Part shown: positions 5,993-8,521 of the stretch, in pieces
Numbering within the stretch: the first letter of the stretch is position 1
Layout of the letters: each line of letters starts with the position of its first letter
Assembly (NCBI RefSeq): GCF_002163875.1
Contig: NZ_CP019333.1
Span: 2,906,864 to 2,970,863, forward strand
DNA: 64,000 bases
Origin: Gilvibacter sp. SZ-19
Lineage (GTDB): Bacteria > Bacteroidota > Bacteroidia > Flavobacteriales > Flavobacteriaceae
Direction: 5' to 3'
Position numbers and translations under genes: made by a program
Notes under the pieces: generated by a model
Seen by the model: only the letters and a program-made list of their open reading frames with translations
What the model was told of the DNA's origin: nothing
Database searches by the model: none

Positions 5993-6400
5993 ATGGATGA
6001 TAGAGACCGCCAATTATTGGACATCAGACCTCAGATCCCTTCTGCCAGAATCTTAGATTCTATGAGTGCAGAAGAGTACTTTCAAAACAGCACCCTCCGC
6101 CCTATTGCCAAACTTCAGAACGAGCTCTTGCTAGATATGTTCAGAAACTATATCCGCAAGCATAAGAATGTTTTCTATGAGCTATCTGTAGAGAAACGCT
6201 TGGATTATATAGAAAATGCCATTCACAAAGACATGAAGTTCAGAAATTCTTTAAAAGGGATGATCATCGGACAGTTCACTGTGGAGGAATACAGGCTATA
6301 TACCTTACATTCTAGCGCTTTGAACAAGCGCATGATGAATATTGTAAAGGAACGCCTTAAAAGTCAGCTGCAGGTCTTAGAATATCAGTACGCGTACTAG
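5993..6400 (+). CDS. Conserved flavobacterial protein of unknown function (135 aa)
   Basis: A 135-residue helical, soluble protein with no signal peptide. The core is LRPIAKLQNELLLDMFRNYI followed by a helix ending KRLDYIENAIHKDMKFRNSLKGMIIGQFTVEEY. I recognise this as a small protein conserved across Flavobacteriaceae and often called glyoxalase in databases. I see none of the VOC-fold metal residues or beta-alpha-beta units that such a name would require, so I reject that function. The last 24 bases overlap the end of the convergent DUF3307 gene. Confidence 0.75.
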   Translation: MDDRDRQLLDIRPQIPSARILDSMSAEEYFQNSTLRPIAKLQNELLLDMFRNYIRKHKNVFYELSVEKRLDYIENAIHKDMKFRNSLKGMIIGQFTVEEYRLYTLHSSALNKRMMNIVKERLKSQLQVLEYQYAY

Positions 6401-7108
6401 GCTTCCTATTAAAATACTCAAGGCAAAACTCATCAGCGTACCAATGAGTACGTATTCGGTCTGTTTGCGTGCGTTTCCAGTCTTTGAATCACCAAAACGC
6501 AAAATAGACTTCGCGCCTATCAAAAAACCGATAGCCCCAAAGTTATCTGTGAGAATTAGGGTAAAGATCAAAATACGCTCAAAGATCCCGATCACTCTAC
6601 CTGCACTCTCTAAACTGCTCAAGGCCTCTTCTTCTGCGATTTCTTCCTGCCACTTCTTGGTTGCCTTTCCTATAATGAATCCGACGGGGAAGATCACTAA
6701 TAAATAACCCGTTGTAATTGCCAAAAAGTAGGGACTAGTAAAGAATTCTTTCAGCCCTTTGAGCACCTCGACTTGCTCAGCATTCAAATACCACCAGGCC
6801 AATGCCAGTACAAGCACATGAAGGAATTGATCTATTAGAAACACCTTGAGGTTGTCTTCTTTTGCCCGTAGTTTCCAGAGATCGATAAAGAAATGAGTAA
6901 CCGCAATGCCAATGGGCACCAAAAAACTCGTCCATTGCTGTAAGAGCAAGTAGGTCAACAGTCCTGCGAGAATAGCGTGAAAATACAAGAACCAAGACTT
7001 GGCCTTTAATTGCTGTTTATGGCTTACCCAAGCTTTGGTTTGAAAGACAAAGTCTGTTAGAACATGAGCCAACAACAACTGTAAAGCGATCAATAAGGAA
7101 TCATTCAT
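6377..7108 (-). CDS. DUF3307 membrane protein
   Basis: A 243-residue polytopic inner-membrane protein. The N-terminal third matches DUF3307: an LLAHVLTDFVFQT helix with conserved His/Asp near residues 13-20, then HKQQLKAKSWFLYFHA, and a VTHFFIDLWK helix with His and Asp near 70. Six or seven hydrophobic segments are visible. The buried His/Asp pairs suggest a membrane metal site, but no activity is known. Its start overlaps the SatD-like gene by eight bases (7101-7108), so the two are translated from one message. The downstream end overlaps the convergent 135-residue protein by 24 bases. Confidence 0.85.
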   Translation of the reverse strand: MNDSLLIALQLLLAHVLTDFVFQTKAWVSHKQQLKAKSWFLYFHAILAGLLTYLLLQQWTSFLVPIGIAVTHFFIDLWKLRAKEDNLKVFLIDQFLHVLVLALAWWYLNAEQVEVLKGLKEFFTSPYFLAITTGYLLVIFPVGFIIGKATKKWQEEIAEEEALSSLESAGRVIGIFERILIFTLILTDNFGAIGFLIGAKSILRFGDSKTGNARKQTEYVLIGTLMSFALSILIGSLVRVLIF

Positions 7109-7763
7109 GGCAATGTGTTTTTATAAGACTTTCAAAACGCCGCAGTAAACCTTGGATCTCCTGCCAGCTAGCCGCCTTCTTTCTGAGATTTATAGCCGCC
7201 TGACTGCGATCTAGTTGGTCTGCGATCTCTTGTTCCTTATAGCCTTTTAATAGGTAGTACACTACCTCAGAAGATGCTACCGACCAACGGTCTGTGACAT
7301 TGTCCAAGAAGGCAAAGGTAGTGTCCAGCTCGGCGTTGATATCCGCATCGGCACACTGAAACTGGGTTTTTCTTCCTAAGGATTTCATCCCATCCAAAAG
7401 TCGTCCGGAATATTGATAGGCCATACCGTTAGCAGTATGAACCTCCTGTTGAGGAAATTCACCCTCCCCTACACCTATGGCTAGACGCACATCGCCCATC
7501 GGGATCACAGCTTTAGAGATCATAGGGTCAATTTGAGCCTTGGTAACTGTAGCTTTTAATCGCAAGGCTATGCGCAGTGCCAAACTAGGTTCTTGCAGCA
7601 CCACTTGAAAACTATCTCCTCGAAACATATCAAAACGAACGGCTCCAGGGAATTCTTCAGTAAGCTTTGCAAATTCACCCTGTAGTTCCTCTAGAATGAA
7701 TTCCAGCTGCTTCTTCTTGTATTTGGTAGAGTCGATTAAATCGGCAGTAATTACAGCGATCAT
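7101..7763 (-). CDS. SatD-family protein with C-terminal helix-turn-helix
   Basis: A 220-residue soluble protein. The N-terminal half opens with an IAVITADLIDST strand-loop and contains FDMFRGDSFQVVLQ and VRLAIGVGEG. This is the SatD arrangement, which resembles the palm core of class III nucleotide cyclases. Residues about 175-210 (KGYKEQEIADQLDRSQAAINLRKKAAS) form a convincing helix-turn-helix. It overlaps the DUF3307 membrane gene by eight bases; SatD-DUF3307 pairing is recurrent in Bacteroidota. Three identical-spacing palindromes lie directly before its ATG, so autoregulation is likely. My inference is a cytosolic sensor-repressor controlling its membrane partner. The ligand is unknown. 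Confidence 0.8.
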   Translation of the reverse strand: MIAVITADLIDSTKYKKKQLEFILEELQGEFAKLTEEFPGAVRFDMFRGDSFQVVLQEPSLALRIALRLKATVTKAQIDPMISKAVIPMGDVRLAIGVGEGEFPQQEVHTANGMAYQYSGRLLDGMKSLGRKTQFQCADADINAELDTTFAFLDNVTDRWSVASSEVVYYLLKGYKEQEIADQLDRSQAAINLRKKAASWQEIQGLLRRFESLIKTHCHE

Positions 7764-7772
7764 AGTATTAAT

Positions 7773-7794
7773 TTATAAGCTAAAATACTTATAA
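7773..7794. promoter_or_regulatory. Palindromic operator 1 upstream of satD-like gene
   Basis: TTATAAG-N8-CTTATAA, a perfect 7-bp dyad in a 22-bp unit. It lies nine bases before the ATG of the SatD-like gene and is the first of three units with identical geometry. Confidence 0.8.
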
Positions 7795-7801
7795 TTTTTA
7801 T

Positions 7802-7823
7802 ATATAAGCCTTTTGACTTATAA
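7802..7823. promoter_or_regulatory. Palindromic operator 2 upstream of satD-like gene
   Basis: ATATAAG-N8-CTTATAA, the same dyad with one mismatch in the left arm. Its centre is exactly 29 bp from that of operator 1. Confidence 0.8.
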
Positions 7824-7830
7824 TTTATTT

Positions 7831-7852
7831 TTATAAGCTATATGACTTATAA
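7831..7852. promoter_or_regulatory. Palindromic operator 3 upstream of satD-like gene
   Basis: TTATAAG-N8-CTTATAA, perfect arms, centred exactly 29 bp from operator 2. It overlaps the last codons of the upstream DUF2461 gene, whose stop codon is at 7847-7849. Confidence 0.8.
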
Positions 7853-8521
7853 TAAGGATTCCCCGTTGAGGTCTGTGGTCAAGACCTCACTCATATAGTC
7901 GAAAAATGGACGTAGCAACTCAAAATGATACAGCACCTTTTCACCAAAATCCGGGGCTAAAACCTCCTTATCGGTAAAGGGATGCACGACAAAGAAAGCC
8001 TTGTTCTTGATCAGATCGATATTGGGATGATCCTTGCTAAATCCCTTGGGAGCAGTTTTGACTTGATACTCGGTATTAAAGCCTCCAAAAGCCTTTTTAA
8101 AATCCGGGGCGGACAAGATCGCTCGGATCGGCTCCGCGTCGAACTCAAATTCCTTGCGAATACGCAATAGATCTGCCGGTTCTGGACCCCAAAACCCTCC
8201 TGCCATGGCAGAAGCTCCGGGTTCTATCCGCAGATAATACCCGCCGCGTCTGTGAGCGCCTTCTCTGCTAAAACTCACGGAACGATGCACATTGTAAGGT
8301 GTCTTGTCCTTACTAAAACGAATGTCTCTATTGATCCTAAAAACCTTGGTTCGTTCTATAACGTCCTTGGTGTTAAGCCCATCGGTAAGATCTTGATAAA
8401 AAGCCTTTAACGCAGCCTCATTGCGTTTGTACTCGGCCCTGTTGGCGTCCATCCATTCTTTATTGTTGTTGTGCTTGAGCGCCTTGAGAAACTCAAAACA
8501 GCTCTTTGGAATCTGGTTCAT
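7847..8521 (-). CDS. DUF2461 family protein
   Basis: A 224-residue soluble protein matching DUF2461 along its whole length. It begins FEFLKALKHNNNKEWMDANRAEY, continues with KVFRINRDIRFSKDKTPY near residues 60-75, GGYYLRIEPG near 95, and a C-terminal helix LLRPFFDYM. The RDIRFSKDKTPYN block is diagnostic. The biochemical role is unknown. It lies 48 bases downstream of the RlmI-like gene on the same strand, and its 3' end carries the third operator of the next gene. Confidence 0.88.
   Translation of the reverse strand: MNQIPKSCFEFLKALKHNNNKEWMDANRAEYKRNEAALKAFYQDLTDGLNTKDVIERTKVFRINRDIRFSKDKTPYNVHRSVSFSREGAHRRGGYYLRIEPGASAMAGGFWGPEPADLLRIRKEFEFDAEPIRAILSAPDFKKAFGGFNTEYQVKTAPKGFSKDHPNIDLIKNKAFFVVHPFTDKEVLAPDFGEKVLYHFELLRPFFDYMSEVLTTDLNGESLL

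Follow-up and report, generated by a model that had tools for sequence, protein, structure and literature searches.

Tandem dyads at a conserved 28/29-base-pair pitch precede SatD-like/DUF3307 gene pairs and probably form the operator array of the SatD-like protein

Three dyads upstream of a SatD-like gene in Gilvibacter

The 64,000-nucleotide stretch of the Gilvibacter sp. SZ-19 genome analysed here (the window; contig NZ_CP019333.1, positions 2,906,864 to 2,970,863) contains a putative operon of two minus-strand genes that is preceded by three tandem dyads. The first gene (7101–7763) encodes a 220-residue SatD-like protein, and the second (6377–7108) a 243-residue DUF3307 membrane protein. 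The coordinates of the two open reading frames (ORFs) give the overlap of eight base pairs (bp) that the initial annotation had reported. The sequence TTATAAG-N8-CTTATAA occurs three times within 80 bp, with a start-to-start spacing of exactly 29 bp; the dyads are not assigned to a strand. The dyad nearest to the SatD-like gene (7773–7794) has no mismatches, and its centre is 20 bp from the ATG. The middle dyad (7802–7823) has one mismatch. The far dyad (7831–7852) has none and shares the last six bases of the minus-strand DUF2461 ORF (7847–8521), the 3′ end of which it touches. The pattern search and the ORF coordinates thus bear out the dyads, the 29-bp distance between their centres, and the overlap with the DUF2461 gene as they were initially described. 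At 10.5 bp per turn, 29 bp corresponds to 2.76 turns of the helix and 28 bp to 2.67, which means that successive dyads do not share one face of the DNA, as had also been pointed out.

A search of the window with up to three mismatches gives ten matches against 4.83 expected, and ten were reached in 3 of 100 shuffles. The seven matches outside the array carry three mismatches each; therefore, the dyads of the array stand apart. In the whole genome there are four sites with at most one mismatch, three of them the dyads of the array and one isolated, compared to two sites for the reversed control pattern. With up to two mismatches the numbers are 25 and 21, respectively, which is near background. 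No second cluster was found among the listed matches with up to two mismatches, which leaves the array in the window as the sole one detected in the genome.

Arrays precede SatD-like genes across Bacteroidota

Of 149 genomes of the same family, 93 contain a SatD-like homolog, as do 91 of 296 genomes in a sample of the phylum when fragments are counted; 80 named loci were added, the number kept from 87 named relatives. Ninety of the 93 family matches were examined, with G014, G051 (partial), and G117 left out. From the phylum sample 70 loci were examined, and the rows that were not fetched are same-family or same-order relatives, some rows of family f17, second copies, fragments, and weak matches. 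Removal of 16 identical loci left 224 upstream regions for comparison. The closest named relatives belong to Gilvibacter and are 79% identical (L095 and L096). The array finder is based on half-sites and models tandem even-centred dyads only; to set the thresholds, every third locus was shuffled once by mononucleotides. An earlier finder of dyad pairs was dropped because its arms took in the variable centre, and it missed most arrays including that of the window.

A tandem-dyad array scoring above the 99th percentile of the shuffles is present in 208 of the 224 upstream regions, whereas the same score is exceeded by 3 of 224 coding stretches and 2 of 220 stretches located 527–700 bp upstream. 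An open scan of periods from 22 to 39 bp assigns a pitch of 28 bp to 98 loci and 29 bp to 110; periods of 25, 27, 38, and 39 bp are each found at one locus (4 of 224), and 12 loci pass at no period. Plain autocorrelation of the 224 regions has its best lag at 28 or 29 bp in 168 and at 56–58 bp in 18. Among the first 90 loci, a lag of 28 or 29 bp is obtained for 68, compared to one of 90 in coding sequence. The comparison that had been proposed as a check of the initial annotation, an alignment of orthologous upstream regions, thus recovers the 28/29-bp array in 208 of 224 cases; the absence of dyads that would have spoken against the annotation was not observed. The dyads of the window are one case of a conserved architecture that is larger than first stated.

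The 206 good arrays, defined by a score of at least 13, still include close kin and correspond to an effective number of 166 at 80% identity. Most contain three dyads (157), and the others contain four (23), two (19), or five (7). Outside the family of Gilvibacter, 36 of 48 examined phylum-sample loci have an array, and 8 of the 12 misses (L235–L242) come from one family. The SatD-like genes of these eight loci encode a different helix-turn-helix (HTH), with the sequence TRQAIGDSL and similar ones, and no array was detected upstream of them.

The core of the dyad changes together with the recognition helix

The half-site of the arrays reads approximately wwTAT followed by a variable 3-bp core at positions 6–8. 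For analyses of the core, arrays in a shifted register (for example, L041, L073, and L087) or with a different outer sequence (for example, L172, L221, L222, L225, and L243–L249) were set aside: 20 of the 206, which lacked register, for mutual information, leaving 186, and 22 for the core-pair, tree, prediction, and pitch-change analyses, leaving 184. The core has 26 forms in 184 loci: AAG, which is that of the window, in 85, TAG in 24, CGT in 11, CGG in 10, TCC in 9, TAC in 9, CTG in 8, and 19 rarer forms. On a 184-tip tree calculated from the N-terminal palm domain alone, the core changes 53 times by parsimony on consensus cores, a count in which some changes may be noise, compared to six changes of the pitch. 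The geometry of the putative operator is thus fixed, whereas its letters drift fast.

The residues that follow the core point to the protein that reads it. Mutual information with average product correction (APC), summed over positions 6–8, ranks residues 193, 190, and 189 of the SatD-like protein first. In the predicted structure, these residues lie in helix 188–197, the second helix of the HTH. On the palm-only tree, residue 193 and the core change on the same branch 21 times (8.8 expected), residue 190 and the core 14 times (5.6 expected), and residue 187 and the core 20 times (11.0 expected). Residues 193, 190, and 187 are the top three of 187 columns in this ranking, followed by 181 and 189, and the median column has a z-score of −0.4. 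Among pairs of proteins with 40–50% palm identity, 92% of the 322 pairs in which residues 189, 190, and 193 are all equal share the core, as opposed to 4% of the 912 pairs in which none of them is equal. Individual trends are counted over related sequences and are therefore not independent: C at half-site position 6 accompanies E or D at residue 193 (25 of 26), G at position 7 accompanies S or T at residue 190 (27 of 29), C at position 7 accompanies D or E at residue 189 (7 of 7), and C at position 8 accompanies K or R at residue 193 (24 of 29). Because the core changes together with recognition-helix residues, the HTH of the SatD-like protein itself very probably reads the array. The initial annotation had named this protein as the reader, and the co-variation strongly supports that assignment. 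The covariation argues for this HTH reading this array and not for a universal code.

Prediction of the core across clades from residues 187, 189, 190, and 193 was tried and abandoned, as it is hardly or no better than prediction from palm similarity. The similar performance of the two across deep divergence counts as evidence against a transferable code. The accuracies are given below with the other observations that count against an operator read by this HTH.

Promoter boxes favour repression

The −7 box TAnnTTTG is present in 130 of the 206 regions, whereas 30.9 would be expected, and it favours particular positions relative to the dyads. Measured from the centre of the last dyad, 36 of 180 boxes start at +6 or +8 and 24 start at −20, −23, or −48. 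Both groups lie within the array, which favours repression, as do the 53 boxes that start at +14 to +18 and place the last dyad just upstream of the −7 box. There are thus good grounds, from box positions, for thinking that the satD-like/DUF3307 operon is repressed through the array. The positions of the boxes in these 130 regions support the repression proposed in the initial annotation; however, there is no exact box in the window itself, and some boxes are located downstream of the array. At one locus (L220), four near-identical 29-bp repeats lie upstream of the gene; the linkers carry TATATTTG and TATGTTTG follows the last repeat, so that −7-like boxes recur there at the pitch of the dyads.

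The position of the remaining boxes bears on two other explanations. The SatD-like protein may activate its own operon or switch between activation and repression, and the 16 of 180 boxes that start 31–37 bp past the last dyad centre leave the array in a possible place for an activator. This explanation is unlikely given the 36 boxes at +6/+8 and 24 at −20/−23/−48 inside the array and the 53 at +14 to +18. Alternatively, the dyads could act as hairpins in the 5′ leader of the RNA, in attenuation or RNA processing, and not as DNA operators. Perfect dyads can fold as RNA, and many arrays are near the start codon, the median distance from the last dyad centre being 29 bp. However, arrays with a box 31–37 bp past the last centre are probably not transcribed, the core changes in step with the recognition helix of a protein that has a DNA-binding fold, and it is not obvious what use RNA would have for a fixed pitch. 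A function as RNA hairpins is therefore very unlikely.

Taken with the co-variation, the comparative data make it highly likely that the three dyads serve a one-component autoregulator as its operator array. One SatD-like dimer would bind each dyad through its C-terminal HTHs, with one HTH per TAT-xyz half-site, and neighbouring dimers would touch each other on the array. Such contacts between dimers would explain the near-absence of pitches of 27, 30, and 31 bp. Full occupancy of the array would cover promoter elements and reduce transcription of the satD-like and DUF3307 genes. Since the genome of Gilvibacter sp. SZ-19 yielded no second target, the operator and the recognition helix may drift together, and free joint drift would explain the many changes of specificity.

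Several observations weigh against an operator that is read by this HTH and represses the operon. The array threshold was failed by 16 of 224 loci, eight of them (L235–L242) from one phylum-sample family. No exact −7 box was found near the array of the window, 76 of the 206 regions have no −7 box, and the 16 of 180 boxes starting at +31 to +37 downstream of the last centre fit activation too. Without APC, residue 193 is the only one of the recognition helix in the top six columns (it ranks first, with 189 seventh and 190 tenth). When position 6 is taken by itself, residue 13 comes first, with APC as well. Residue 207, outside the recognition helix, is at the top of a ranking by partial correlation. 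When one or two of residues 189, 190, and 193 match, the core is the same in 45% and 31% of pairs, respectively, which is an uneven rise. Prediction of the core from the four residues reaches 0.51 below 45% identity and 0.43 below 35%, compared to 0.48 and 0.45 from palm similarity; random sets of residues reach 0.30 and 0.21 on average.

The SatD-like protein combines a palm domain with an HTH

The protein encoded in the window comprises a palm domain (residues ~1–158) and a C-terminal HTH with the recognition helix at residues ~188–197. Its structure is predicted with a mean predicted local distance difference test (pLDDT) score of 93.3 and contains HTH-like helices at residues 177–184 and 188–197. 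The protein itself has weak matches only to HTH profiles; its homolog from an Escherichia coli plasmid (L254, described below) exceeds the Pfam cut-off of the HTH family UPF0122. The profile matches and the predicted helices support the C-terminal HTH that had been proposed from the sequence. The SatD family is named after the streptococcal sat genes. The window protein is homologous to the Pfam family SatD (PF16264); however, it scores 20.5 bits, which is under the cut-off of 29, and relatives exceed the cut-off in 4 of 21 genomes. Therefore, ‘SatD-like’ is the safe name.

A Foldseek search with the model gives 38 matches with an expectation value (E) of 0.001 or less, the best being 3.5e-5. 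They include guanylate and adenylate cyclases and GGDEF domains. The model also matches GTP cyclohydrolase III and chains of type III CRISPR effectors (Cas10). Among the matches listed, the palm aligns over 115–161 residues with structural Z-scores of 9.0–10.0. The predicted N-terminal domain has a cyclase/GGDEF-like palm fold, and the resemblance to a cyclase palm in the initial annotation is borne out by the fold match. The protein differs from class III cyclases, GGDEF diguanylate cyclases, and the type III CRISPR effector palm in being fused to an HTH and in lacking the canonical GGDEF motif. A sequence search of the PDB with the palm profile gave weak matches only, in which RGD is aligned to the GGD of DosC with a domain E of 0.08. 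Residues D8 and D50 are invariant in 90 of 90 SatD-like sequences. In the model, D8 is near the end of strand 2–9, and D50 is in the turn between strands 42–47 and 51–56. The predicted palm fold together with these two aspartates makes it plausible that the domain binds or synthesizes a nucleotide. With less certainty than the DNA binding, the palm would bind or make a nucleotide that alters the interaction with the operator.

In PADLOC-DB 2.0.0, the HTH region of the window protein has weak CARF-type matches (E 0.013) and that of the L254 protein has CasR/CARF-type matches (E 8.8e-5); none was found for the DUF3307 protein of the window or for the Sphingomonas protein.

DUF3307 is a nearly constant partner

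The DUF3307 protein of the window matches PF11750 with 83.8 bits, over the cut-off of 23. Within the stretch examined, DUF3307 is encoded on the same strand downstream of the SatD-like gene in 222 of 224 loci, and in 143 of the 222 the genes overlap when the nearest possible start codon is used. DUF3307 was found in 92 of the 149 family genomes, all but one (G086) among the 93 with a SatD-like gene, and the pair is present in 91 of the 149. Two genomes (G057 and G106) have a SatD-like gene and no Pfam match to DUF3307; a local profile search recovered DUF3307 in the former (L031) and none in the latter. The locus of G106 (L040) is the sole one of the 90 examined in the family at which a SatD-like gene and dyads occur and DUF3307 was not found downstream.

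An alignment of DUF3307 with 37 rows has invariant polar residues that include H15, H72, D93, Q94, and H97. From the invariant histidines, aspartate, and glutamine it may be guessed that DUF3307 is a membrane enzyme. The model is all-helical with a mean pLDDT of 87.3, and a Foldseek search against the PDB gave no match at E ≤0.001, from which a new fold does not follow. The level of the DUF3307 protein might track either a nucleotide state or how much of the regulator is present. Confidence in both the ligand of the palm and the role of DUF3307 is low.

Plasmid copies extend the arrangement beyond Bacteroidota

Searches of plasmids with tblastn found relatives of the regulator or of DUF3307 in Vibrio, Salinivibrio, Pseudoalteromonas, Enterobacteriaceae, Pseudomonas fragi, Sphingomonas, Fusobacterium, and haloarchaea. 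The regulator profile finds the gene in all eight plasmid regions that were read first, with a weak match in Fusobacterium. Arrays were sought at single loci by a free scan of periods from 22 to 39 bp without shuffles, in which scores below ~20 are weak. Three dyads at 28 bp precede the gene in Vibrio lentus (score 51.5), two at 29 bp in Haloplanus (29.4), and two at 28 bp in Pseudoalteromonas (28.2). In Segatella, a member of Bacteroidota, three dyads at 28 bp score 22.4 when the start is placed at the match and 5.8 with the annotated start. Fusobacterium has two dyads at 29 bp (18.5) and Salinivibrio two at 28 bp (16.9). No convincing array was found at the loci of Sphingomonas (14.0, at 27 bp) or P. 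fragi (5.2 or 11.1). By these scores, arrays are also located upstream of the homologs on plasmids of Vibrio, Pseudoalteromonas, and a haloarchaeon.

The even-centred finder reads poorly the dyads of two enterobacterial plasmids, which are odd-centred. One exact CAACC-N5-GGTTG dyad is located upstream of the gene in pEC34A, where autocorrelation has its best lag at 29 bp, and Enterobacter kobei has dyads of this sequence, two of them 29 bp apart. Plasmid pEC34A (L254, 1066–2755) is a 3770-bp mobilizable plasmid of E. coli in which a SatD-like gene, annotated as hypothetical, directly precedes DUF3307. Near-identical copies of pEC34A occur in Klebsiella, and the plasmid pair has no DNA match in E. 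coli genomes. In a Haloplanus plasmid (L256, 1767–3184), the gene for a SatD family protein, which matches PF16264 with 110.9 bits, overlaps DUF3307, and GTTCGCC-type dyads lie 29 bp apart upstream. In a plasmid of Sphingomonas insulae (L255, 1701–5654), the pair adjoins genes annotated as a Pycsar effector family, an E2 domain-associated cysteine-rich protein, and an adenylate/guanylate cyclase. These neighbours hint at a defence context.

The plasmid copies also recall a centromere-like or nucleation site for a spreading or polymerizing protein of the plasmid partition type, with regulation being secondary. The strict pitch, the two to five repeats, and the autoregulator-like HTH would suit such a site, and a gene annotated only as an AAA family ATPase is near the pair in two of the plasmid regions that were read. 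However, each of the 93 family genomes has a single SatD-like match, several copies are on contigs of 2.5–4 Mb and are thus chromosomal, and the linked partner is a membrane protein. A centromere-like function is extremely improbable.

Relation to known systems

Literature matched by the names SatD and DUF3307, by satD with helix-turn-helix or cyclase, by the sat operon, and by the repeat lengths describes no such operator, and an autoregulator that combines a palm with an HTH appears to be undescribed. The passages available from PMC4886424, considered as a source on the family, deal with the cyclase-like proteins of DUF2652 instead. The nearest precedent for the evolutionary pattern appears to be the local regulation code of the LacI family. 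According to the available parts of PMC2978694, local regulation in that family places operators beside the regulator gene, and two residues of the local autoregulators correlate with two bases of the operator. The system described here differs in the protein family, in the tandem 28/29-bp array, in the cyclase-like palm as N-terminal domain, and in that no target beyond its own operon was found in the genome of Gilvibacter sp. SZ-19.

A different logic is offered by Panoptes (OptS/mCpol with OptE/2TM-beta). Passages of PMC12657218 and PMC12657230 describe how an effector in the membrane can be held in check by a small palm enzyme. Both systems encode a small palm protein together with a membrane protein, and the invariant D8 and D50 of the window protein may be set beside the putative active-site residues Asp6 and Asp57 of KpOptS. 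By contrast, the HTH and the operator array belong to the SatD-like system. The 2TM-beta protein, as taken from its description, has a C-terminal beta-barrel, whereas the DUF3307 model is all-helical without one. In those passages, neither SatD nor DUF3307 is mentioned.

It is possible, though doubtful, that the pair is a guard of this kind, in which a nucleotide from the palm holds DUF3307 inactive, the SatD-like protein also represses the operon, and the loss of either restraint frees a harmful membrane effector. The palm fold close to those of GGDEF domains, class III cyclases, and type III CRISPR effectors, its two invariant aspartates, the near-obligate pairing with DUF3307, the small mobilizable plasmids, and the plasmid copy beside Pycsar-annotated genes would agree with a guard, as would the Panoptes logic itself. 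In addition, the part of PMC11323703 that was available describes satD as accessory yet seemingly essential in Streptococcus pyogenes, as might be expected, by analogy, of a gene that keeps a harmful partner in check. However, no structure in the PDB matches the fold of DUF3307 at E ≤0.001, there is no known enzymatic activity, and the Panoptes passages are silent on both families. Moreover, the pair is present in 91 of 149 family genomes, wider than a patchy defence gene would be, and the window's own neighbour genes look ordinary.

A broader proposal starts from the autoregulatory operator and is equally speculative. The SatD-like/DUF3307 pair may be an unrecognized, widespread two-gene switch of Bacteroidota and of gammaproteobacterial and haloarchaeal plasmids, in which palm–HTH dimers wrap the promoter at a 28/29-bp pitch and restrain a membrane effector by repression and by a nucleotide, with the specificity rewritten under a frozen geometry. 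If so, it would provide a functional handle on two uncharacterized families. The ~53 changes of the operator under fixed geometry would constitute a natural experiment in which the evolution of protein–DNA specificity is directly testable, and trends between residues and bases, such as 193 with position 6, 190 with position 7, and 193 with position 8, could be tested singly. It also raises the question of why the 28/29-bp pitch is kept so strictly even though successive dimers would rotate around the helix.

Other features of the DUF3307 gene

A convergent plus-strand ORF (5993–6400) extends 24 bp into the 3′ end of the DUF3307 ORF and has no Pfam match up to an E of 1. No relative was obtained from viral contigs with the close-clade SatD-like alignment, and tblastn of a phage collection with the L034 SatD-like protein and the window DUF3307 protein gave none. 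The word DUF3307 occurs in a paper on jumbo phages (PMC8504454). PHROG 2470 matches the DUF3307 protein of the window at E 1.6e-14; therefore, DUF3307 occurs in phages.
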